DNA from: Kushneria konosiri
Lineage (GTDB): Bacteria; Pseudomonadota; Gammaproteobacteria; Pseudomonadales; Halomonadaceae
NCBI RefSeq assembly: GCF_002155145.1
Contig: NZ_CP021323.1
Coordinates: forward strand, 1,240,001-1,304,000
Length of the DNA stretch: 64,000 bases
Direction of reading: 5' to 3'
Positions within the stretch are counted from its first letter, which is position 1, and every line of letters starts with the position of its first letter. The position numbers and the translations under genes were made by a program. Of the stretch, positions 2,676 through 38,398 are shown piece by piece. The notes under the pieces are model-generated. The model was given only the letters and a program-made list of their open reading frames with translations, did not search any database and was not told the origin of the DNA.

Positions 2676-3647
2676 ATGTCAAAACCCCTGCTTGTGGGGC
2701 TGGCGCTGGCCGTAGTGCTGGCCGGCTGTGCCAGCGCGCCGACATCGGCCCCAACGCCTGTGGTCGATACCGACGCCATTGATCGCATCTTCAGCAATGT
2801 GCCGGTCATTGACGATACAACCCCACCCCGGCGCTACAGTCCGGCGCAGGGGGCGACGCTCGAGCGTCGCAGCGGTTATCGGGTTGATCGTTCGGTATCG
2901 TCACGCGGGCAGAATCAGCGCATTCGCTTTCTGGTACTCCACTACACCGGCGGCGATGACAAGGCCGCCTTCCGGGCGTTGACCGGAGGCAACGTCAGTG
3001 CCCATTACCTGGTCACGGCCACTCCGGGGGAGTATCAGAATCAGCCAGTGGTCATGCAGCTGGTCGATGAGAGTAAAAGAGCCTGGCATGCCGGTGTCAG
3101 CAGCTGGGCGGATCGCGTCAATCTCAACGACACCTCGATCGGCATCGAGATCGTCAATCGCGGCCATTACACCTCGCCTGACGGCATGGTCTGGGATCCC
3201 TACAGTCGGGCCCAGATCGAGCTGGTGACTGCCCTGGCCCGGGATATCGTTGATCGCTACCACATCGCGCCGGAAAACGTGCTGGGCCACAGCGACATCG
3301 CGCCCGGCCGCAAGGTTGATCCGGGCCCGTTCTTTCCCTGGCAGCGCCTTCACGAGGCCGGGGTCGGTGCCTGGCCCGAACGTCACGTCGTGACCCGCTA
3401 TCAGCGTGAGCTGAGCGCCTCACCACTGTCCATGGCGCAGCTGCAGCGGGCGCTGGGGCTCTGGGGTTATCCGGTAAGTGTGACCGGCACCTTTGATGAG
3501 CCGACCCGCAAGGCGCTGGGCGCCTTTCAGATGCATTTCCGACCGGCCGACACCCACGGCAATGTGGATGTGGAGAGCCAGGCCATCTTGCTGGCGCTGC
3601 TGGAGCGCTATCACGGTCTGGCCGACGTCCGCGCCGTGCGTCAGTAG
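2676..3647 (+). CDS. amiD: N-acetylmuramoyl-L-alanine amidase, AmiD-type outer-membrane lipoprotein
   Basis: Zinc amidase that cleaves the amide between MurNAc and L-Ala in peptidoglycan and its anhydro fragments. 323 residues. The signal peptide ends in lipobox LAGC with Cys at about residue 18. The Amidase_2 domain follows: VLHYTGG supplies the first zinc His, NVSAHYLV surrounds the acid region, and GHSDIAPGRKVDPG supplies the second His and an Asp ligand. A PG_binding_1 repeat occupies the last ~80 residues (LQRALGLWGYP...). The domain order matches E. coli AmiD and the cytosolic AmpD lacks a signal peptide. Start chosen at ATG 2676 because it begins a proper signal peptide; an upstream in-frame codon at 2628 does not. 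Convergent with phoR. Confidence 0.9.
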   Translation: MSKPLLVGLALAVVLAGCASAPTSAPTPVVDTDAIDRIFSNVPVIDDTTPPRRYSPAQGATLERRSGYRVDRSVSSRGQNQRIRFLVLHYTGGDDKAAFRALTGGNVSAHYLVTATPGEYQNQPVVMQLVDESKRAWHAGVSSWADRVNLNDTSIGIEIVNRGHYTSPDGMVWDPYSRAQIELVTALARDIVDRYHIAPENVLGHSDIAPGRKVDPGPFFPWQRLHEAGVGAWPERHVVTRYQRELSASPLSMAQLQRALGLWGYPVSVTGTFDEPTRKALGAFQMHFRPADTHGNVDVESQAILLALLERYHGLADVRAVRQ

Positions 3648-3690
3648 ACGGCTGGCAGGCCGCGGTGAGTCATGAGACAGCGCCCGGACA

Positions 3691-4989
3691 TCAGTTGGGC
3701 GCCTTCTCCATGCGGGTGGCGGGGAAAATGCAGCGAAAGCAGGCGCCTTCGCCGGGCTGGCTTTTGATATCGAGCCGGGCATCGTGGCGCAGCAGGACGT
3801 GCTTGACGATGGCCAGTCCCAGACCGGTGCCGCCGCTGGCCACCGAGCGACTCTTGTCGACCCGGTAGAACCGCTCGGTCAGCCGCGGGAGATGCTCGGG
3901 GGAGATGCCTTCACCGTTATCGATCACCTCGACGGCGGCGCCATCCTTGCCCCACCGGCGATAGACGATGGTGATGTGACAGCCAGGTGAGGTGTAGCGC
4001 ACTGCGTTGTAGATCAGGTTGGACAGGGCGCTTCGCAGCTCTTCGATATCCCCGAACAGCCGCCGGGTCTCCTCGAGCCGACAGGTGATCTCATGGCTGC
4101 CGGCGGAGAGCTCCTGTCCGTCCTCGGCGATCTGTTCGCACAGCGCTGCCATGTCGATGGAGCGCTCATTATGATGGCGTTCGCTGGTCTCGAGCCGTGA
4201 CAGGGTCAGAAGATCCTCGACCAGATGCTGCATGCGCACGGTCTGCTCCTGCATACGGCTCAGGCCGCGCTTGAACGAGCCGGGCAGCGCCTCATGGTTG
4301 TCCTGCCAGGTTTCAACGTAGCCGGTCAGCACCGTCAAAGGCGTGCGCAGCTCATGGGAGACGTTGGCCACGAAGTCGCGTCGAGTCTGCTCCAGACGCT
4401 GCAGGCGCGTCACATCGCGAATGATCAACAGACGTTCGTCGTCGCCAAAGCGGGTGATCTGACACGCCAGCGTGCGTGCCTCGTTGGTGGGAGCATTGAT
4501 CGTGATCGGCTCGCTGTAATCCATCCGACGGAAATAGCGAATGAAGTCGGGATCACGCAGATAGTTGGTCAGGTGATGGCCGCGGTCCTGACGGTTGTCC
4601 AGCCCGATAAGCCGCTCGGCGGCACTGTTCCACCAGTCCAGACAGCCGCGTGAGTCGAGCATCACGACCCCTTCGCTCATCGACTCGGCGGACTCCTGAA
4701 CACGCTTCAATACCGAGCGCAGGCGGTTTTGAAGCTGCTGCTGGCCCTTCTGGTAGCGGTAGAGCCGGTCGAACAGATCGCCCCACACCCCTTCGCCATC
4801 GGGCGGGCGTTGATCTACCGGGGCTTCCAGCCAGCGGTAGAGTCGCCTCAGGTGTCTGAGGGTAAAGGCGAGATGGATGCCCAGCCCCAGGGCCAGACCC
4901 CAGCCCGGATAGCCCAGCAACATGCCCAGAATGGTAAAGCATGCGGACAGATAGGCCAGACGCCAGAGTTCGTTGAGCCAGTAATGCAT
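3691..4989 (-). CDS. phoR: Phosphate regulon sensor histidine kinase PhoR
   Basis: Membrane histidine kinase that phosphorylates PhoB under phosphate limitation and dephosphorylates it when PhoU signals plenty. 432 residues, as in E. coli (431). Two close hydrophobic segments occupy residues ~10-45 with almost no periplasmic loop, typical of PhoR. A PAS domain (~95-190) precedes the HisKA box FVANVSHELRTPLTV (His near 210) and the ATPase domain with N box (LIYNAVRY), G1 (VIDNGEGI) and G2 (GGTGLGLAIVKH). It starts 6 bases after phoB and is surely co-transcribed with it. Confidence 0.95.
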   Translation of the reverse strand: MHYWLNELWRLAYLSACFTILGMLLGYPGWGLALGLGIHLAFTLRHLRRLYRWLEAPVDQRPPDGEGVWGDLFDRLYRYQKGQQQLQNRLRSVLKRVQESAESMSEGVVMLDSRGCLDWWNSAAERLIGLDNRQDRGHHLTNYLRDPDFIRYFRRMDYSEPITINAPTNEARTLACQITRFGDDERLLIIRDVTRLQRLEQTRRDFVANVSHELRTPLTVLTGYVETWQDNHEALPGSFKRGLSRMQEQTVRMQHLVEDLLTLSRLETSERHHNERSIDMAALCEQIAEDGQELSAGSHEITCRLEETRRLFGDIEELRSALSNLIYNAVRYTSPGCHITIVYRRWGKDGAAVEVIDNGEGISPEHLPRLTERFYRVDKSRSVASGGTGLGLAIVKHVLLRHDARLDIKSQPGEGACFRCIFPATRMEKAPN

Positions 4990-4995
4990 GGCCGG

Positions 4996-5679
4996 CTACC
5001 GTGACGAAAAGCGATAGCCGGTACCGCGTACGGTCTGCACCAGATGCTGATGGGCATCACCCAGCACCTTGCGCAGCCGTCGAATGTGTACATCCACCGT
5101 GCGCTCCTCGACATAGACATTGCCACCCCAGACCTGATCAAGCAGTTGGGTGCGGGTGTAGGCGCGCTCCTGATGGGTCATGAAAAACTGCAGCAGGCGA
5201 TACTCGGTCGGGCCGATCTCGAGCGCCCGACCATCGACACTGACGCGATGGCTGACGGGGTCAAGCATCAGCCCGCCTACCTCAACGGTCTCCTCGATAC
5301 CGGCCGGTGTCGTGCGCCGCAGCACGGCCTTGAGACGGGCGATCAGCTCACGGGGAGAAAAGGGCTTGGTGATGTAGTCATCGGCACCGCTTTCCAGCCC
5401 CTGAACCTTGTTGTCTTCCTCACTGCGGGCCGTCAACAGCACGATCGGGATGTCGCGGGTCGTGGGTTCGCGCTTGAGACGGCGGGCAAGATCAATGCCG
5501 CTGACGCCCGGCAGCATCCAGTCCAGTAAGATCAGATCGGGACGCTCGTCGACCACCAGTTCATGGGCGCTCCTGGCATCCTCGGCCTCGAGAATGCGAA
5601 AGTCCGCCATCTCGAGCGCCATGGCAATCATTTCACGAATCGGCGCTTCGTCGTCGACGATTAAAACGGTTCTGGACAT
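4996..5679 (-). CDS. phoB: Phosphate regulon response regulator PhoB
   Basis: OmpR-family transcription factor that binds Pho boxes. 227 residues. The receiver domain shows the acidic pair (VDDEAP), phosphoacceptor Asp in [10 protein letters not shown] (~53) and Lys in [10 protein letters not shown] (~105). The C-terminal winged helix spans ~130-225, ending in VRGTGYRF. First gene of phoBR; a Pho box sits ~105 bases upstream, so the operon is probably autoregulated. Confidence 0.96.
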
Positions 5680-5784
5680 GAGTGGCTTCCCCTGCCGGAT
5701 AGCGATGGCGACTGACGAGATGACCTATGCGGTGGCGCGCAGGTCATGGGCGTCGTCATGTGATCGTCATTCAAACGTCTTCAT

Positions 5785-5802
5785 ATGACAACTTTATGAC
5801 AC
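5785..5802 (-). promoter_or_regulatory. Pho box upstream of phoB
   Basis: Read on the minus strand: GTGTCAT-AAAG-TTGTCAT, two PhoB half-sites with 11-bp periodicity, in the 157-base gap between ubiA and phoB and pointing into phoB. Its second half-site is identical to that of the box ahead of phoU. Confidence 0.78.
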
Positions 5803-5836
5803 TGCGACCGGGGATGACGCCATCGCTTCCTGAGGA

Positions 5837-6703
5837 TTAAGCCTGCCAGGTCGCCAGCGCAATGCCGGCAAAAAGCAGAATGCCTACCCAGTGGTTGTTC
5901 AAAAAGGCCTGAAAGCAGCCCTCACGGGTGCGCGTTCGACAAAGCCGCTGCTGATGCACGAACACAACGGCGATGGCGATAAGCGATGCCCAGTAGAAGC
6001 CATCAAGCTCGGCCATGCGACCTACAACCGCCAGCAGCATCAGCATCAGCACCTGAAGTGCGCCCTGGATGACCAGATCCATCCGGCCGAATAGCACAGC
6101 GGTCGACTTGATGCCGATTTTCAGATCATCGTCGCGATCGACCATGGCATACCAGGTGTCATACACCAGCGTCCAGACAATATTGGCAAAAAAGAGCCAC
6201 CAGGCCACCGCCGGCACATGGCCCTGCTCGGCGCCGAAGGCCATGGGAATGCTCCAGCCGAACGCCGCCCCCAGTACCACCTGCGGCAGATGGGTATAGC
6301 GCTTCATGAACGGGTAGCTGGCGGCCAGTGCTGCAGCGCCGAATGACAGCATGATGGTGTAGGCGTTGGTGAAACACACCAGCACAAAGGCGATGGCCAG
6401 CAGCACGCCAAACAGCGTCAGCGCCTCGCGCTCGCTGATGCGCCCGGTCGCCAGCGGTCGATCATGGGTACGCTTGACGTGGGCATCGAAGTGGCGGTCG
6501 GCGTAGTCATTGATCACGCACCCCGCTGCGCGCATGACATAGACCCCCAGAATGAAAATGATCAGATTATGCCGGGTGGGCAGGCCATCGCCGGCCAGCC
6601 ACAGAGCCGCCAGCGTTGGCCACATCAAAAGCCAGGTGCCGATGGGCCGGTCAAGCCGGGTCAGACGCATGAAGTCAGGGAGACGAGCGAGGGGCGACGG
6701 CAT
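5837..6703 (-). CDS. ubiA: 4-hydroxybenzoate octaprenyltransferase UbiA
   Basis: Membrane prenyltransferase that joins the polyprenyl chain to 4-hydroxybenzoate in ubiquinone synthesis. 288 residues. Two Asp-rich prenyl-diphosphate motifs are present: NDYADRHFD (~65) and DTWYAMVDRDDD (~190), with about eight hydrophobic helices in between and after. Downstream of ubiC on the same strand with an 88-base gap, the usual ubiCA order. Confidence 0.95.
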   Translation of the reverse strand: MPSPLARLPDFMRLTRLDRPIGTWLLMWPTLAALWLAGDGLPTRHNLIIFILGVYVMRAAGCVINDYADRHFDAHVKRTHDRPLATGRISEREALTLFGVLLAIAFVLVCFTNAYTIMLSFGAAALAASYPFMKRYTHLPQVVLGAAFGWSIPMAFGAEQGHVPAVAWWLFFANIVWTLVYDTWYAMVDRDDDLKIGIKSTAVLFGRMDLVIQGALQVLMLMLLAVVGRMAELDGFYWASLIAIAVVFVHQQRLCRTRTREGCFQAFLNNHWVGILLFAGIALATWQA

Positions 6704-6791
6704 CGTCGGGGCTCCAGTCAGGGTAAAACGAGGATGTCAGCGTAAAAACATGAGTCTACCCGAAATGACCCGGTGTCGAGTCATTCATGCG

Positions 6792-7379
6792 TCATGGGCG
6801 CTGGCACCGGGTGAAGCGCTCATGCACAAAATACTCCTGCACCAGCAGCGGCGGGCGATCAGGCCCCAGGGTGAACAGTGAGCGCCGTCCCCACGCAACC
6901 GGCAGATCCAGAAATCCCGGGGCATCCCGGGTCATTTCGATGGCCGAGCGCCGTACCATGGACTTTTTGGGTGCCCGTGCGGCTCTGGCAAAGAGCTGAT
7001 GGCCAAGCGCCCGGGTGCCCAGGCGGGCCATCCAGGGCGGGCAGCCCCTGAGCGCCATGACCGACCGCGCCGCCACCAGCACCTCGCCCCCGGCTTCCAG
7101 AGTAACCTCCCGCCGCCAGACCCGCTGGCCGGTAGTCAGACCCAGCGCGGAAAGTTCGTCATGACGTCCGCGTCCGGGACCCTGAGCGTACAGTCGAACC
7201 GTAATGGGCGCATCGACCAGACGTGCCAATCGGGCCGTGAGCGAGTCCCGTGACCTCATCAGGCCTGCGAGCGGGTTTTCAAGGTGTACACCGGACAGGG
7301 CAATCGGTTGCCAGCGGGTCAGCGACGTAAAAGGCCTGGAAGATTCGGGCATGAAGGCAACATCCGAAAAGAGGGTCAT
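6792..7379 (-). CDS. ubiC: Chorismate pyruvate-lyase UbiC
   Basis: Converts chorismate to 4-hydroxybenzoate plus pyruvate, the first committed step of ubiquinone synthesis. 195 residues from the first ATG; a second in-frame ATG at residue 10 would give 186. The family pattern is visible: SLTxR near residue 55, VRLYAQG-type strand, REVxLE...(WRREVTLEAGGEVLVAARSV) mid-protein, and a C-terminal RRSLF segment. Position upstream of ubiA supports the call. Length is slightly above E. coli UbiC (165). Confidence 0.85.
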   Translation of the reverse strand: MTLFSDVAFMPESSRPFTSLTRWQPIALSGVHLENPLAGLMRSRDSLTARLARLVDAPITVRLYAQGPGRGRHDELSALGLTTGQRVWRREVTLEAGGEVLVAARSVMALRGCPPWMARLGTRALGHQLFARAARAPKKSMVRRSAIEMTRDAPGFLDLPVAWGRRSLFTLGPDRPPLLVQEYFVHERFTRCQRP

Positions 7380-7651
7380 CGGGTATCTTTTTGTACCCGT
7401 GAGGTAAAAATATCATCCATTAGGCCGGATATACGCGACAAAGTGCCATTTTGTGCAGTTTTGGCTGGCGTGAAGCAGGGCGGCGTTGCTAGTCTAGGCT
7501 CGTCGAACAGTGTTCGCCCTGCAAGGCCGGCTTCATGGCGCTGGTGCAGGGCAGTGAGCGACCCTTCGCGCACCCCCTTGCAGTGTGCGAATTCGATATA
7601 ACAATGGGCGGCACCAAAAATCGCCATGTTATTGCCCAACCAGGAGGCGTT

Positions 7652-7927
7652 ATGCGCAAACCAGAACTCGCCGCGGCCATTGCCGAGCAGGCGGATCTTT
7701 CAAAGGACAAGGCAGGTCAGGTACTCAACGTCGTACTCGACGAGATTACCCGCAGTGTTGCCAGGGGCGAAGATGTCACCCTGATCGGGTTTGGTACCTT
7801 CACCGTGCGCGAGCGCGCCGCACGTACCGGCAAGAACCCGCAGACCGGCAAGGAAATCCAGATTCCTGCCAGCAAGAACGTTGCGTTCAAGGCCGGCAAG
7901 GGTCTCAAGGACGCCGTTTCCAAGTAA
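7652..7927 (+). CDS. hupB: DNA-binding protein HU, beta-type
   Basis: Small histone-like protein that bends DNA and helps organise the nucleoid. 91 residues, the standard HU length. It starts MRKPELAAAIAE, has the GFGTF core and the DNA-contacting arm with RTGKNPQTGKEIQIPA, and ends with KAGKGLKDAV. Start fixed at ATG 7652 by AGGAGG at 7642-7647. It stands alone with a terminator directly after it; its promoter must lie in the 272-base gap after ubiC. HU-alpha versus beta cannot be settled by eye. Confidence 0.93.
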   Translation: MRKPELAAAIAEQADLSKDKAGQVLNVVLDEITRSVARGEDVTLIGFGTFTVRERAARTGKNPQTGKEIQIPASKNVAFKAGKGLKDAVSK

Positions 7928-7956
7928 TTCCTGTCACGGGATTACGGCGTTGATAT

Positions 7957-7990
7957 CACCGGCTGCCCCAGGGCAGCCGGTGTTGTTTTA
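7957..7990 (+). terminator. Rho-independent terminator after hupB
   Basis: An 11-12 bp GC-rich stem (7957-7968 with 7971-7982) with a very tight loop is followed by TTGTTTTA. It sits 29 bases after the hupB stop and just before the 3' end of the convergent trpA. Confidence 0.8.
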
Positions 7991-8812
7991 TCAGGCCGTC
8001 GCCAGGCGTGCCTGTCGAACCCCACGCGCGAGGTCACGCACCAGGGCGTGCACGTCCCGGGTGCCGGCCTCGACGCTGTCGGCATGTTCGATGCAGCTGA
8101 TCAGCGCAGACCCGACCACCACGGCATCGGCGAAACGACCGATGCTGGCCGCCTGCTCGGCGCTGCGGATGCCAAAGCCCACGGCAATCGGCAGATCGGT
8201 ATGGGCGCGAATGCGGGTGATCGAGCGCTCGACGCTTTCCGGCGTGGGCGCGGCAGCCCCGGTGACACCGGCTACCGAGACGTAATAGATAAAGCCCGAG
8301 GTGTTTTCCAGCACCCGCGGCAGGCGCTTGTCATCGGTTGTGGGCGTGGCCAGACGAATGAAATCAATGCCGGCACGCGTGGCCGGCAGACACAGTTCGC
8401 TGTCATGTTCCGGCGGCAGGTCGACCACAATCAGTCCATCCACGCCGGCCTCGGACGCATCCTTCAGAAACTGTTCAACGCCATAGCGATAGATGGGGTT
8501 GTAGTAACCCATCAAGACGATCGGCGTTTCCTGATTGTCACGGCGGAACTCGCGCACCATCTCGAGCGTTTTGTGCTGGGTGTGCTGACCCTTCAACGCG
8601 CGCAGGGCGGCCTTCTGGATTGATGGACCATCGGCCATCGGGTCGGTGAACGGCATGCCCAGCTCGATGATGTCGGCGCCGGCCTCCGGCAGGCCCTTGA
8701 GCGTGTCGAGCGAGGCCTGATAGTTCGGATCGCCGGCCATGGTAAAGGTGACCAGCGCCGCACGATCTTCAGCCTTGAGCGCCTCGAGGCGGCGAGTAAT
8801 ACGTGTGGCCAT
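7991..8812 (-). CDS. trpA: Tryptophan synthase alpha chain
   Basis: Cleaves indole-glycerol phosphate to indole and glyceraldehyde 3-phosphate; works in the alpha2beta2 complex with TrpB. 273 residues. Catalytic Glu and Asp lie in [16 protein letters not shown] (~48-62), and the phosphate site in the [10 protein letters not shown] and VVGSALI stretches near the C-terminus. Its ATG overlaps the trpB stop by one base (TAATG), so translation is coupled. Confidence 0.97.
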
Positions 8813-27522: not shown

Positions 27523-27681
27523 CATCACGGCCTCCACGACGATCGCGTATGGACTGCCCGCCACCGGCAGGATGCGCAGTTATGGGGCCAAGCGTGCGCG
27601 TGGCGGGGAGTGTTGATTTTGATGCAGGTCAAGGTGGGTGGGAGCGAGGAAGGAGGCTACCTCTTTGGGGGTAGCGACTAT

Positions 27682-27711
27682 CTATTGAATAAAAATATTA
27701 TAATTCAATAG
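27682..27711. repeat. AT-rich inverted repeat, distal
   Basis: Arms CTATTGAAT (27682-27690) and ATTCAATAG (27703-27711), a perfect 9-bp match with a 12-base AT spacer. Located 194 bases before the AT-rich gene; protein-binding site or border relic. Confidence 0.5.
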
Positions 27712-27854
27712 TTTGCGATGTAATGTAGTATCTAGGGCGTAATTGTTTTGAACAGTAGGTTCTTTAGATATAGCAAATACGCAGATATATAAAAGACTGT
27801 TTTTAATCTTAGGAGTACCTAAAGGAATTAAATTTTTGCATCCATTTGCCGATC

Positions 27855-27876
27855 TATATTAATCTGAATTAATATA
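27855..27876. promoter_or_regulatory. AT-rich palindrome just upstream of the 591-residue gene
   Basis: Arms TATATTAAT (27855-27863) and ATTAATATA (27868-27876), spacer CTGA, ending 28 bases before the start codon. The position suits an operator overlapping the promoter or a 5'-leader hairpin. Confidence 0.5.
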
Positions 27877-27904
27877 ATAGCCATTAATGTTTGAGGTCGG
27901 TGGC

Positions 27905-29680
27905 ATGAAAATAGAAATAGATGATCTTTGCGTAAGCAAAAACGCACAGTTTTATAAACTGAAAAAAACTCTGAGTGTAAAAGCGTTAAAAACTTTGTTT
28001 AAAGAAGTATCCCAAAATCGTTCTGGGAGCTATCTGTGTAATAAAGTTCGGTCAAATTATACATCTAATAATGATGTAGCCGTTAAGTATTCACTTCTTT
28101 CTTACAAAACAGTAGCAGAACCATCATTCCTTAAGGGTACACAGATTAAAGAGTATAAAGTTGCTTATTTGTTGTTAGTGGAACTAGATGATGCTGTAGC
28201 CGTAATAAAAAAACACGTAGAACCCTTTGCAAACTTTTTTGATGATTTTTTAGAAGAGTTTGACTACGATAATTTTTGTCATTTTTATGGCGACAAGAGT
28301 CCTGAGTATGAAAAAATCGCCATGAAAAACATGAGTATTTCTAATGCGGTTATTAGATCGCGATCTTTAGAAGCAAAAAATTTGGACGGGATCATGTCAT
28401 CAAATTCTTCTAGTAGATCTGTACCTACCAGCTTCAGGATGAAGATTGCCCAAGATGTATATACGCTGACTCCAAATACATCTAGAGTTAGCCATCGGGA
28501 TAAAAAAGCTGGCTTCGATGAATTAGTTGATTGGCTGTCTTTGACCAAGGAAGAAATAAAAATTGTTAATGGTAAGAGTGAGTTTTTAAATAATTTTGCA
28601 GTCCCTGTTTGTTTAGAAGATATACTAAAGATTCCTCATTCGATCACTGCTATTTTTTTAGATTTGGGAGAGGTCGAAAGAAAGATAGAATGCGGAGAAG
28701 CAAAATTAAAAAAACAAAACGGTGATTACCTGAATCAAAGTGAAGTCTATAGATTTTTTGATATTTTGAAATCCCCACTAAGAATTAATAGTGAATCAAT
28801 TTTTGTGAAAGGGAAAAAAGTAAAAGGAAAAATCCAGTGTTCAAAAAGTTCGATTGCTATTAAAAATACGATTTTGAACGATTTGGTGATAGAGGAGGAT
28901 GGGGTATTTGAATATAAGCTGTCTAAATTAGTTAATGAGGAAAAGCCATTTTCTGCTGTTTTTGATAGTCCAAATTACTCATATTATTCTCGCTCTTGCT
29001 TTGAAGATAAATCTCTTCTTAATAACATTGACTCTATGCTTACTATTTTTGATGACACCTTTGATTTTTCCAAAGTTAGAAGTGAGAAAGAAAAGAAACA
29101 TGAAGCTTCGCTCGCAAGATTCCCAGAAAAATCGCTTTTTAGAGCGATCGAGGATGAATATTGTGCTGAGTCTAATGTCGTTTTCTGCGATGACATGAAT
29201 GATGAATGGGCTGATCATATATCTTTTAATATCAATAGATCAGTACCAGAAGTTTCCTTTGTGCATTCGAAATTTGTTGTTAAAGACACCTATGGTGCTA
29301 GCGCTTTCCATGAAGTTGTTGCCCAAGCATTAAAAAACATTGGACGCACTCAGTCAGATAAAAAATCTTTTAAAGAAAAATACGATAAGAAGTGGTCCAA
29401 AATGTATGAGTCTACTCAGATACCTAGGACTATAGGAGCAAACAACTGGAAAGATATTGAAGATGTGATAGATGTTGTGCAAAAAAATCCAAATTCTATA
29501 AAAAAGGTGGTTTTAGCGACGCCATTTTTAAGCAAGTCAAAATTGAGTGATGAAATCGACCAGTTAAATACAGGGGGAAGATGTAAGCCACATTATGTTC
29601 AGTTGATATGGCTGATAAATACTTTTATAAGTTCCTGTAAGGAATATGGCGCTCAAGCTTATATTCTTTGTAAAAAGTAG
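27905..29680 (+). CDS. Unrecognised 591-residue protein in AT-rich island
   Basis: I do not recognise a characterised family. The protein is Lys/Ser/Asp-rich, cytoplasmic by look (no signal peptide or clear membrane helix), and intact. Base use is strikingly AT-rich (AAA, TTT, ATT codons) against GC-rich neighbours, so it was acquired. A C-terminal block, roughly residues 430-485, reads DEWADHISF ... VSFVHSKFV ... ASAFHEVVAQALKNIG; in outline this resembles a short module I associate with proteins of defence islands (TIGR04141/DUF6119-like), but that is memory-based and weak. The last block KKVVLATPFLSK ... HYVQLIWLINTF looks like a closing alpha/beta unit. ATG 27905 preferred over 27887 because GAGGT lies 7 bases upstream. 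Neighbours are broken genes, including a RES toxin relic. Confidence 0.7.
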   Translation: MKIEIDDLCVSKNAQFYKLKKTLSVKALKTLFKEVSQNRSGSYLCNKVRSNYTSNNDVAVKYSLLSYKTVAEPSFLKGTQIKEYKVAYLLLVELDDAVAVIKKHVEPFANFFDDFLEEFDYDNFCHFYGDKSPEYEKIAMKNMSISNAVIRSRSLEAKNLDGIMSSNSSSRSVPTSFRMKIAQDVYTLTPNTSRVSHRDKKAGFDELVDWLSLTKEEIKIVNGKSEFLNNFAVPVCLEDILKIPHSITAIFLDLGEVERKIECGEAKLKKQNGDYLNQSEVYRFFDILKSPLRINSESIFVKGKKVKGKIQCSKSSIAIKNTILNDLVIEEDGVFEYKLSKLVNEEKPFSAVFDSPNYSYYSRSCFEDKSLLNNIDSMLTIFDDTFDFSKVRSEKEKKHEASLARFPEKSLFRAIEDEYCAESNVVFCDDMNDEWADHISFNINRSVPEVSFVHSKFVVKDTYGASAFHEVVAQALKNIGRTQSDKKSFKEKYDKKWSKMYESTQIPRTIGANNWKDIEDVIDVVQKNPNSIKKVVLATPFLSKSKLSDEIDQLNTGGRCKPHYVQLIWLINTFISSCKEYGAQAYILCKK

Positions 29681-29783
29681 TTATTCCTAATAAAATGGCG
29701 CCTAGCGTTTTTTTAACGCCCTTTCATGGTTTTCTATTGAAAGTACTACTTGCCAAAAAGCAGCAAGTAAAGCTTGAACCTCT

Positions 29784-29957
29784 TCACTCAACCCACGTCA
29801 GTTCCAGGACATGCCAAATCCGCTCGCCGTCCCACTCGTAGCCAAGATGCCTTCCCTGCCGGGTCGCGCTCATGACCGGCGGGCGCAGTACCGCCGCATA
29901 TTCGCCCTCTGGGTCTCTCACGCTGGGGTAGACGATGCCATCGGCCCATTCTTTCTA
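29784..29957 (-). pseudogene. RES-domain (toxin-type) remnant, C-terminal end
   Basis: Read on the minus strand from 29945: ADGIVYPSVRDPEGEYAAVL, then RQGRHLGYEWDGERI and a stop at 29784-29786. The ADGIxYPSVR and GRHLxYxWDGERI patterns are those of RES-domain NAD+-degrading toxins (RES-Xre systems). A TAG at 29955-29957 is in frame upstream. Further upstream, to about 30080, a different frame gives YLSGFHNELFELRDNLEAMP, plausibly more of the same gene after a frameshift and deletion. No Xre antitoxin was seen. The rest of the 29681-30236 gap holds no other gene. Confidence 0.62.
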
Positions 29958-30236
29958 GAGGCTCAAGCCAAAGATCTGCCCTGCTTACCAGTTTTCGGGG
30001 TCGACAGGGGCATGGCTTCCAAGTTATCGCGCAGCTCAAAAAGCTCGTTATGAAACCCGGATAGGTAGACGCGCTGTTGAAGTAAAATCGGCAGACATTA
30101 CCCAATCCCGCCTCCGGCAACCTTTCTCCTACCCATTATTACGCTGTAGATACACCCGCGTCTTGCAACGGTCATCCAGCGCGCTCAATGTCCATCTGGC
30201 AGGTCCTTCTCTCCTGATCAGTTGAGGATTCGTGCC

Positions 30237-30476
30237 ATGCCCTTGCCCAACCGTTCGTTTCTCACCGTTTCTCCACGCGACGCCTTTGATATCGATACCG
30301 CCCGCCTTGCCGACTTCAGTGCCGAGAATTTCGAGCTGGTCGCTCACCGCGGTGCCAGCGGCTATCGCCCCGAACACACGCTTGAGGCGTATCAACTGGC
30401 GATCGAACAGGGGGCCGATACCATCGAGCCTGACCTGGTGCCCACCCGGGATGGCGTGCTGGTGGCGCGCCACGAG
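30237..30476 (+). pseudogene. glpQ: glpQ remnant: 5' fragment of glycerophosphodiester phosphodiesterase
   Basis: About 80 residues with the GDPD entry motif [19 protein letters not shown] (catalytic His-Arg) and [20 protein letters not shown] (metal-binding Glu, Asp and second His). Homology stops abruptly at the second His region near 30476; the usual protein has ~350 residues. What follows in frame is antisense to a lipoprotein signal peptide, so two unrelated genes were joined by a deletion. Confidence 0.85.
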
Positions 30477-30480
30477 GGTG

Positions 30481-30530
30481 CATCCGGCAAGCGCGACGAT
30501 GATGGCGAACATACAAAAACCGGCTTTCAT
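30481..30530 (-). pseudogene. Lipoprotein gene remnant: signal peptide only
   Basis: Minus strand [17 protein letters not shown]: a complete lipoprotein signal peptide with lipobox LAGC, cut at the Cys where glpQ sequence begins. It starts 20 bases after the TonB-receptor stop on the same strand, so it was once the next gene in that operon. The body is lost. Confidence 0.6.
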
Positions 30531-30550
30531 AAGGCGCGCTCTTTTTCTCG

Positions 30551-32605
30551 TTAAAATCCGACTTCCAGCCCGGCATAGAAGGTCCGCCCCGGAGCGGGCT
30601 CGAAGTAGCGGTTGTTATTGGCATTGATGCGGGTGTTGGCAAAATGCTCGCGGTCGAACAGATTGCGAATACCGGCGTAGACATTGAGGCGGGTATCCCC
30701 GCCAAGCCGCCAGCCCTCGCCTGCGCGCAGGTTGATCAGCCAGTAGCTGTCGACGTCCACGTCGTTGGCATTGTCGGCCACCATGTCGCCGATGTACTGG
30801 GTCTCGAGCGTGGCAAAGCGCTCATCCTGTCCTTCCCAGGTCAGCCAGTTGACCCAGGTCTGCTCCGGCAGGCCGGGAATGCGGTTGCCATCAAACCGCT
30901 CGCCGTTGGCCTCAAAGTCGTCAAAGCGGTAGTGGGCCAGCGTCAGCGCGCTGTCCAGCCGCCAGGTCTCATCGAGCTGCCAGCCCAGTGCGACTTCCAG
31001 CCCGTCACGCTCGGTGTTGCCGGCGTTTTGATAGAAGGTGCGGCCGTCCTCGCCTTCGAGACTGTAGGGCACCAGCTCGTCGCGCACGCGCACCGAAAAC
31101 AGTGCCACGTCGTAGTTCAGGCCGTTGTTGAAATGACCGCGCAGACCGAGCTCGCGGTTCCACGCCTTTTGCGGTTCGACGCTCGAATTGAAGCCGCCGC
31201 CCCCGGTGGGGTTGGCAAACTCCGAGAAGGTCGGTGTCTCGAACGAGGTACCGGTCGTCACATAGGCCTGATGGTCGGGCAGATAGCGATAGCTCAGGCC
31301 TGCCGAGCCGCTCCACTCGTTGAACTCCCGGTCGCCGCTGTCATCGCCGTTGCTGGTGAAATCGTCATCGACCTTGAGCCGAACGCGGTCATGGCGCGCC
31401 CCCAGTGAGGCGGTCCACTGATCGGTGAGGTCGAGATCACCCTGCCAGAAGATGCCGGTCGAGGTGGCGGTCTGGGTCTCGTCGGCGGCGGTGTCGGTGA
31501 CGTCGCCGCTGAAGGCGACATTGCGCCGCCAGCGATCATCGCGCTGGTGGGCGGCATCAATGCCGGCCACGTAGCGCAGCGGCATGTCGCCAAGACTTAG
31601 CGTCTGATGATACTCGACGCTGCCGCCGAAGACGTCGCGGTCATAGCCCAGCAGGCTATCGCCCGGATAGGGCAGCTGCTGCTCGAAATTGCGCCAGGTG
31701 TAGAAGCCCTTCACGTAGAGCTCGCCGGGGCCGGCGGAAAGGTCCTCGTACTGAAGCCCCACCACCTGCTGGTCAACGCTCTGGCCGGTGTCATATTCAC
31801 GGGTAAAGCGCCCGGCCTGATGGCGGTTCTCGGAGACCTGCTCGCGGGTCAGCCCGCCCGGGTCTTCCGAGCGCGGATTATCCAGCAGATTGACGATGGC
31901 GGTGAGCGCACGGTCGTCGTCCAGCTCGCGGCGCAGTTTGGCGTTGAGCAGGTATTTTTCCACCGAGCTGTGGTCACGATAGCCGTTCTGATTTAGCGCC
32001 GAGAGGCTGACGTGATGCGACCAGTCGCCGTTGGCACTGCCGGTCTGCAGGGAGGCCTTTTTGTAGTCGTCGCTGCCGCCTTCCACACGCAGGCGGGTAC
32101 CCGGGTCGTCACGGCCGTTGGCGGTAGTCACCGAGATCACCCCGCCGGCGGCGTTGCCGTAGAGCACCGAGGAGGGCCCGCGGATCACCTCGATGCTTTC
32201 GGCGCTGTCGAGATCGATCGCATCGATCTGGGCCTGGCCGTCCGGCAGCGTATAGGGAATGCCATCCATCAAAATGGTGATGCCGCGCACGCCGAAGGGC
32301 GCGCGGGCGCCGAAGCCGCGAATGGCAATGCGCTGGCCCTGGGCGAAGTTGTCCCGGTTCTGGATAAACACCCCCGGCACCTGCCCGAGCGATTCATCCA
32401 GCCGCACCCGCTGCTGGCCGCGCTGGATGCTTTCGCGCTCGACAGTCGAGACAGCCGCCGGGGTATTGTAGAGCTCGCGGGCCAGCCGCGGGGCGCTGAT
32501 CACCATGGTCTCGATGGCGTCATCGCCCGTGATCTCTTCACCGTGGGCGGTCCCCGCCGTCATGGCGCCCGCCAGCGCCAGCAGCAGCGTTCTGCGTGAT
32601 GTCAT
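30551..32605 (-). CDS. TonB-dependent outer-membrane receptor
   Basis: 684 residues, FecA-like length without the N-terminal signalling domain. Signal peptide ends near AHG-E (~23). A TonB box ETMVISA lies at ~32-38. Plug domain (~45-165) contains RIAIRGFG and [20 protein letters not shown]; the barrel follows and ends in Phe (LEVGF), as outer-membrane proteins do. Divergent from a dipeptide/nickel-type ABC importer with a Zur-like site in between, so the ligand is probably a metal chelate or peptide-like metallophore. Ligand not shown by sequence. Confidence 0.9.
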
Positions 32606-37921: not shown

Positions 37922-38398
37922 TTAACGATTGCCGACTGTATTAACTACAGTTGCGCCGCTACATTTTTTGTCAATTAAATATTCTTCCAATGCTGATGCG
38001 AAATATCGAGGTAAAGGGCCGTTTACCGGAATGGCCAAAATGGCTTCAAGTAAAAATTTATGATTACCCAGTTTATAAATACCTTCTTTCCTGTAAGGAA
38101 TTAGATGGTTCCATATACGGTAACCAATATTTTGGCTAGAAGCCTTGCCTATATAAATTCCTGGTTGGCCTGGAGGTTCCGGGCTTCTACCACACAATAC
38201 ATATACTCCTGGAGAGTCCTTGCTGGGCCAATGCTGATCGGCCCATTTGCAATTCCATATGATCGAGAAGTTGGCCGGGTTTTCGATATCTATCGGGCTT
38301 AATTCAAAGGGTTCCTTTAGATGCTGGTTAAAGTTGGCAAGGTGCAGGTTAATTTCTTTAATTATATTTTCGTAGCGATTTTTAATCTCGTCATTCAT
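37922..38398 (-). CDS. Small GIY-YIG-like nuclease-fold protein
   Basis: 158 residues, noticeably AT-richer than neighbours. The middle reads SPGVYVLCG (GIY-like strand) and PGIYIGKASSQNIGYRIWNHL (YIG-like strand plus the Arg helix), and a Glu in SALEEYLIDKK fits the metal-binding Glu of the GIY-YIG fold. Function unknown; members act in repair, restriction and mobile elements. It is antisense to the ABC operon and alone. Ribosome site is weak, so the start is approximate. Confidence 0.6.
   Translation of the reverse strand: MNDEIKNRYENIIKEINLHLANFNQHLKEPFELSPIDIENPANFSIIWNCKWADQHWPSKDSPGVYVLCGRSPEPPGQPGIYIGKASSQNIGYRIWNHLIPYRKEGIYKLGNHKFLLEAILAIPVNGPLPRYFASALEEYLIDKKCSGATVVNTVGNR

Follow-up and report, generated by a model that had tools for sequence, protein, structure and literature searches.

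A probably horizontally acquired PDC-S71 gene beside a narH remnant in Kushneria konosiri: a single-gene anti-phage candidate with a predicted PD-(D/E)XK-like domain

The window analysed here is a stretch of 64,000 nucleotides from Kushneria konosiri (genome G000; contig NZ_CP021323.1, positions 1,240,001 to 1,304,000 of the forward strand), and all positions refer to it unless another locus is named. The longest open frame at the locus under study spans 27887-29680 and comprises 597 codons; translation from the ATG at 27905 yields a protein of 591 amino acids. This start was preferred over 27887 because a GAGG motif lies 8 nt upstream and most homologues begin within a few residues. The coordinates and the length of 591 residues given in the first-pass annotation were borne out by the same evidence. 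The gene had also been described there as intact and sharply AT-rich in a GC-rich chromosome, and this agrees with the open frame and with a GC content of 33.6% vs 61.9% for the remaining window. For the terminator-like site downstream (Table 1), the scan found three such sites in the region vs a shuffle mean of 1.3. A separate AT-rich frame of 158 aa (37922-38398, minus strand) lies in a GC dip (38-39 kb, 48.6% GC) and looks GIY-YIG-like by eye.

Table 1. Features at the PDC-S71 locus (window positions).
Feature	Position	Strand	Basis
AT-rich insert (33.2% GC), cargo slot between narH and RES remnants	27676..29778		blastn against five sister genomes; GC content
narH remnant, 136 of 538 residues	27154..27561	-	comparison with other genomes of the genus
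GAGG, possible ribosome-binding site	27893..27896	+	read from sequence; 8 nt 5' of the ATG at 27905
PDC-S71 gene	27905..29680	+	591 aa; open frame, profile match, homologue starts
N-terminal strand-rich part, residues 1-128	27905..28288	+	AF2 secondary structure; L103 match begins at residue 129
Module also found behind DEAD/DEAH helicases, residues 129-591	28289..29677	+	hhalign to L103; PDC-S71 profile in L103 and L104
PD-(D/E)XK-like core, residues 405-485	29117..29359	+	invariance; AF2 helix-strand-strand-strand-helix
Core residues E434, D437, H454, K456, Q474	29204, 29213, 29264, 29270, 29324	+	invariance
Terminator-like stem, then T run	29697..29709	+	pattern scan
RES-gene remnant, ~305 bp	29779..30083		77% to region of the intact RES gene in L062
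glpQ-region remnant, ~380 bp	30096..30475		79% to L064, 78% to L065
Lipoprotein-gene remnant	30477..30545	-	short matches of 48-85 bp in L062, L064, L065 and L066

The gene lies in an AT-rich insert, the edges of which were placed by blastn against five sister genomes. In four of the five, left-hand homology broke off immediately upstream of narH, at 27674/27675, and the right edge fell at 29779/29780 in two of the five; the bounds (about 27675/27676 and 29778/29779) are approximate, being set by sister-species homology. The glpQ-region remnant also matched L063 at 91% over 30117-30463. Its label follows the naming of the first-pass annotation, and the lipoprotein label was given by look only. 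Since narH is full-length in six of nine other genomes of the genus and the RES gene is intact in G004, the remnants were interpreted as local decay. The earlier statement that all surroundings are fragmentary holds for the narH, RES, glpQ-region and lipoprotein remnants; it fails for the MFS gene left of the insert and for a 684-aa frame at 30551-32605 (receptor-like by look), both of which are open.

Nine genomes of the same genus were compared with the flanks, and the site was read in five of them (G002, G003, G004, G008 and G009). A 301-aa gene occupies the slot in G004 (L062 3183-4088; insert GC 39.4%), and searches of Pfam and PADLOC with its product gave nothing at E <= 0.1. The slot of G008 (L063 4791-6335; insert GC 36.8%) contains a 514-aa GmrSD_N and HNH protein. 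That of G009 (L064 7037-8822; insert GC 36.4%) encodes a DUF3644 protein, which is PADLOC PDC-S19 (E 9.2e-135), and as second gene a KilA-N protein with a BstA C-terminal match (E 9.6e-20). Merely 144 bp precede the return of glpQ-region homology in G003 (L065 2637-2780), and narH is lost at the site in G002. G001 and G007 matched the left flank only up to window position 27535; G005 and G006 gave no match to it. The slot beside narH is a small turnover hotspot: four different AT-rich cargoes were found in the four occupied sites read (window included), and defence-type families were present in two of the three occupied sister-species slots (G008 and G009). The gene of the window was absent from all nine other genus genomes, which, together with the other inserts at this place in sister species, upholds the earlier suggestion of horizontal arrival.

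The window protein is a full-length member of the PADLOC family PDC-S71 (PDLC05077), with a match of E 2.6e-222 over profile positions 3-589 of 589 and residues 10-597 of the longer (597-codon) frame; no difference from the family was found. The profile also matched all eight homologues scanned (L002, L009, L010, L013, L014, L017, L018 and L019; L003, L004, L005, L007 and L008 were left out) at 3.4e-61 or better. The gene is not a new family, because the protein family was already catalogued. No Pfam or NCBIfam model reached its cut-off with the window protein. A Pfam DUF4722 match (E 5.7e-4) was rejected at 20.1 bits vs a cut-off of 27, and matches in PHROGs (E 0.19) and NCBIfam (E 0.046) were taken as chance, as were sequence searches of solved structures with the window protein, A2 and A4 (lowest E 1.8, 1.3 and 0.25, respectively). 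The prefix PDC denotes a phage defence candidate in PADLOC, a resource assembled in part from co-location. The PDC names reportedly go back to Payne et al. 2024, probably their defining work. In PMC12482510, the phrase phage defence candidate occurs together with PDC-S names. The name PDC-S71 was absent from the main texts of the open-licence PMC papers searched, and a test of the family may have appeared under another name. The family appears to be a catalogued, uncharacterised defence candidate. No description of its domain plan was found in the open-licence PMC literature on PADLOC and PDC names, Hachiman, Cap4 and integrons.

The C-terminus has the layout E-x2-D...H-x-K, which is PD-(D/E)XK-like. 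Invariant columns numbered 29 among 14 family members, and nine of them fall within residues 428-456 (C428, D429, D430, D433, E434, W435, D437, H454 and K456). The alignment was extended to 21 proteins, namely 14 PDC-S71 members, two rhizobial helicase fusions, four G033-type proteins and one 607-aa protein; L006 (frameshifted) and eight E. coli copies (near-identical to L014) were omitted from the alignments. D429, D430, E434, D437, K456 and Q474 were invariant in 21 of 21. The three C-terminal blocks pointed out in the first-pass annotation (DEWADHISF, VSFVHSKF and ASAFHEVVAQALKNIG) contain the greater part of the invariant core in this shared domain. An AF2 model of the C-terminal part (10 sequences, mean pLDDT 86.7) showed a helix, three strands and a helix, with D437 on the second predicted strand and H454 and K456 on the third, in the predicted arrangement of a PD-(D/E)XK core (helix-strand-strand-strand-helix, strand 2 bearing an acidic residue and strand 3 bearing xK). 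A hairpin formed by the second and third strands, turning at about residue 445-446, would place D437 opposite H454. The acidic residue of (D/E)xK was not found: histidine (H454) takes its position in 19 of the 21 proteins, and A or V in the two rhizobial fusions. Variants at this acidic site are known in the PD-(D/E)XK superfamily.

Foldseek searches of the PDB with the C-terminal model gave Cap4 as best row at a sub-significant level (E 0.012, prob 0.51, TM 0.23), and the best 11 rows were all Cap4 chains (E 0.012-0.11). With the model of the whole protein, only poor rows were obtained, DPP8/9 first, and these were disregarded; no PDB row at E <= 1e-3 was found with either model. Comparison by hhalign with HamA and Cap4-like sequences was not significant (E 0.13-0.59), with the motif in register in some runs. 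This test has little power, because HamA vs a small Cap4-like set also fails (E 0.33). By eye, the E/D...D...Q-x-K spacing of Cap4/DUF4297 resembles E-x2-D...H-x-K of PDC-S71. Membership in Cap4 had no profile support: PF14130 gave no row at E <= 1 with the window protein and no match in genome G000, no SAVED sensor domain was found in the protein at E <= 1, and hhalign was not significant. HamA membership was rejected as well, with no PF08878 row at E <= 1, no significant profile match, and no PF08878 match anywhere in G000. The idea of a PD-(D/E)XK-type nuclease is common to both proteins; the HamA nuclease is tied to an SF2 helicase (passages of PMC12278908) and has E-x-K, whereas PDC-S71 has H-x-K, and no HamB helicase was seen as partner among the open frames at 23-34 kb (by eye, and by Pfam on the main left-hand frames). 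With considerable confidence, the C-terminal domain is therefore predicted to be PD-(D/E)XK-like and neither a HamA nor a Cap4.

The same module occurs behind DEAD/DEAH helicases. A tblastn search with the Thioclava member led to Sinorhizobium, Bradyrhizobium and Rhizobium proteins annotated as helicases. For one of them (L103, Sinorhizobium numidicum, 1025 aa), hhalign against the family profile gave E 2.9e-22 over 440 columns, collinear to the C-terminal end, and BLASTP with L018 gave 2e-15. Both rhizobial fusions scanned matched PADLOC PDC-S71 (E 3.5e-33 and 3.3e-41) in their back half, at profile positions 136-588 in L103 and 136-586 in L104 (Bradyrhizobium japonicum). They keep D430, E434, D437, K456 and Q474 of the window protein, and differ from it in having an SF2 helicase in place of residues 1-128 and A or V instead of H454. 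The L103 fusion (2866-6746) resides on a conjugative Sinorhizobium plasmid and is directly followed by an AbiV-family gene (PADLOC E 9.1e-7); no AbiV-family gene is annotated beside the L104 fusion. A more distant helicase-fused C-terminal domain in G033 was first seen as a weak match (E 2.6e-4), and the reverse search led to the window gene (E 4.8e-5). The profiles of the G033-type and PDC-S71 domains matched by hhalign at E 5.1e-9, the best of 20 column shuffles reaching 0.046. For the part before the nuclease in G033-type fusions, a match of E 0.007 outscored each of 100 shuffles, which is no more than suggestive. The G033 fusion (L015, 4010-7297) had no PDC-S71 PADLOC row at E <= 0.1, and no relative of its helicase was found in the viral contigs searched. 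L015, L042 and L043 have SF2 helicase domains with the same H-x-K domain at the end, and L044 ends likewise. A 607-aa protein in G609 (L048 1402-3222, minus strand) has a different N-terminus and the same CDD...E..D...HxK...Q C-terminal domain; it has no Pfam match, its match to the PDC-S71 profile is confined to residues 446-570 (E 3.6e-10), and it may represent a further solo family. Neither the helicase-fused form nor the narH hotspot was met with in the open-licence PMC literature on PDC names, integrons, Hachiman/HamA, Cap4 and P2-like hotspots.

The whole protein was modelled with a mean pLDDT of 73.5, and residues 129-176 are mostly below 50. Searched against viral structures, this model gave RdgC as top match (E 4.6e-3, prob 0.77), with three RdgC-type rows among the best 20. 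RdgC is a DNA-binding recombination protein. As a relative of the N-terminal part it had no sequence support, since hhalign gave E 0.78 vs 0.2 for the reversed and 0.12-0.84 for ten column-shuffled controls, and the predicted resemblance is a structural lead only. Genome G000 contains two rdgC-family matches of its own (Pfam PF04381; C1:48724-49626 and C1:3468080-3468979), as do some relatives.

Homologue searches yielded nine loci in the genome contig collection, one locus (recovered twice) in IMG/VR, and three records in PLSDB, one of which is a 3.97-Mb Acinetobacter record filed as plasmid. There was no match at E <= 0.01 among 50,697 phage records. The gene was present in one of 368 further genomes sampled from the class and in eight of 5,426 complete E. 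coli genomes, where every copy shares 99% identity or more with the one from IMG/VR. This sparse and scattered occurrence is what would be expected of a mobile gene. Eight homologues share 43-61% identity with the window protein over the whole length, L014 44%, and more distant ones 22-29%. From dN/dS values of 0.06, 0.09 and 0.15 in three homologue pairs, it follows that the gene is under purifying selection.

Not counting the window and the copies in E. coli, 14 homologue loci were collected; their contexts are given as a list and do not amount to a test of enrichment. Four copies, from four gammaproteobacteria (L002, L004, L005 and L006), are integron cassettes with GTTAGGG 5' and CCCTAAC 3' of the gene in four of four, and in each the gene is alone in its cassette. 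This was established from directly read flanks and from many VCR-like repeats around L002; automatic attC and core-site scans missed these four. L004 adjoins an integrase with Pfam integrase domains and, by reading, IntI-like features. L003 has a single cassette-like edge only. Around the window copy, neither GTTAGGG before nor CCCTAAC after the gene was present in the flanks read, where one lone RYYYAAC without partner lies 105 nt downstream. That integrons bank defence genes has already been published. The cassette preceding the gene in L002 is an AbiD/Abi_2 gene, and the gene preceding it in L006 encodes a PDDEXK_4 protein matched in part by PDC-S26 (best E 2.4e-16). The L006 copy itself is frameshifted, its frame being broken after 53 codons.

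L014 is a P2-like prophage in which the gene lies antisense between the tail sheath FI and tail-fibre assembly genes. Slot and orientation are those of P2 fun(Z), which is annotated as blocking growth of T5; the proteins are unrelated, and homology to Fun(Z) was rejected (BLASTP E 1.1, hhalign E 0.43). The slot also differs from the gpA-gpQ hotspot of P2-like phages as presented in passages of PMC9122126. LmuA and LmuB (Lamassu) are encoded upstream of the gene in L018, a gene with an FtsK/SpoIIIE domain and a partial SspH match follows it in L010, and the L019 copy lies between conjugation genes. In Yersinia aldovae (L008), the gene is preceded by an integrase and followed by a DEAD helicase resembling the fused ones (E 2.7e-25 to L015, 4e-16 to L104). 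No defence neighbour was seen by eye in L003, L007, L009, L013 and L017, one L003 neighbour being checked via a family library. Among the eight E. coli copies, L105, L106 and L107 were read, and HNH and DUF6602 neighbours were common to all three. The DUF6602 gene has a PD-(D/E)XK PADLOC match in L105 and L107, and the upstream side varies between strains. In L107 (seawater isolate, 6652-8334), HEC-08 is the gene immediately upstream, and an integrase and a dynamin-family gene lie close by. These contexts of several homologues and the full-length PADLOC match lend weight to the guess of a single-gene defence system made in the first-pass annotation.

On balance, we lean towards reading the gene as a horizontally acquired single-gene anti-phage candidate that encodes a solo sensor-nuclease, a helicase-free sibling of the helicase-nuclease proteins. 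The predicted fold and the conserved residues make nuclease activity of the protein probable, and a role in defence is likely from family and context, although the defence reading leans on PADLOC and thereby in part on co-location. Also counting against the overall reading are the five loci at which no defence neighbour was seen, the absence of matches among the phage records, the sub-significant fold match, and the replacement of H454 in the rhizobial fusions. About residues 1-400 would form an N-terminal sensing or regulatory part, followed by the PD-(D/E)XK-type nuclease, the core of which would be made up of E434, D437 and K456, with H454 at the usual acidic (D/E)xK position. The protein would be silent in healthy cells; a phage-specific DNA state or protein would act as trigger, and the triggered protein would cut DNA, leading to phage clearance or to death of the infected cell. 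This trigger and this mode of killing are proposed tentatively. The helicase-free protein may detect DNA unaided or make use of a helicase supplied by host or phage. From the fused form, DNA unwinding or DNA ends are suggested to be part of the signal, as in Hachiman, where helicase action has been proposed to release the nuclease and the helicase can restrain it (passages of PMC12278908). A more specific and rather doubtful version would make PDC-S71 the helicase-free branch of a helicase-sensor-nuclease lineage for which no description was met with. Its ~460-residue H-x-K module would occur solo with a ~130-residue N-terminus, or as SF2 fusion or neighbour; the solo form would sense phage DNA processing directly, possibly by an RdgC-like, DNA-embracing N-terminus, and would have been dispersed in integron cassettes, as an accessory gene of prophages and as cargo of hotspots.

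The module behind DEAD/DEAH helicases and the DEAD helicase gene next to the Y. aldovae copy also fit a bipartite helicase-nuclease system in which the protein is the effector, and for which Hachiman, with a helicase restraining and releasing the nuclease (passages of PMC12278908), provides the logic; the window protein would then lack its partner and would either depend on a borrowed host helicase or be idle. This is unlikely, since an adjacent helicase was seen neither in the window nor at the PDC-S71 loci viewed except L008 (nearest genes, by eye or annotation), and the integron copies are alone in their cassettes. Idleness is opposed by the low dN/dS in three pairs with no helicase seen adjacent, and the Y. 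aldovae likeness is weakened by the general similarity among SF2 helicases.

The occurrence of the gene on plasmids, in integrons and in a prophage would likewise suit a protein that limits plasmids or other mobile elements, or serves in competition of element versus element, rather than acting on phage. Phage is instead indicated by the fun(Z) slot and by neighbouring genes of the Abi, Lamassu and HEC-08 types, though weakly so, because plasmids are also considered targets of Lamassu and others; we regard such a function as quite improbable. That the gene is mobile-element cargo with a role in DNA repair or stress, as the RdgC match of the whole model could indicate, is highly improbable: that match has no sequence support, being no better than its controls, and the patchy distribution in the class and in E. 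coli speaks against it.

For the anti-phage candidate preferred here, a catalogued family that had been blank gains a domain plan, a candidate active site (E434, D437, H454 and K456), a link to helicase-nuclease proteins, and independent mobile contexts. The hotspot on the narH side, with a different cargo at each occupied site read, is a place where further small defence genes may be sought.
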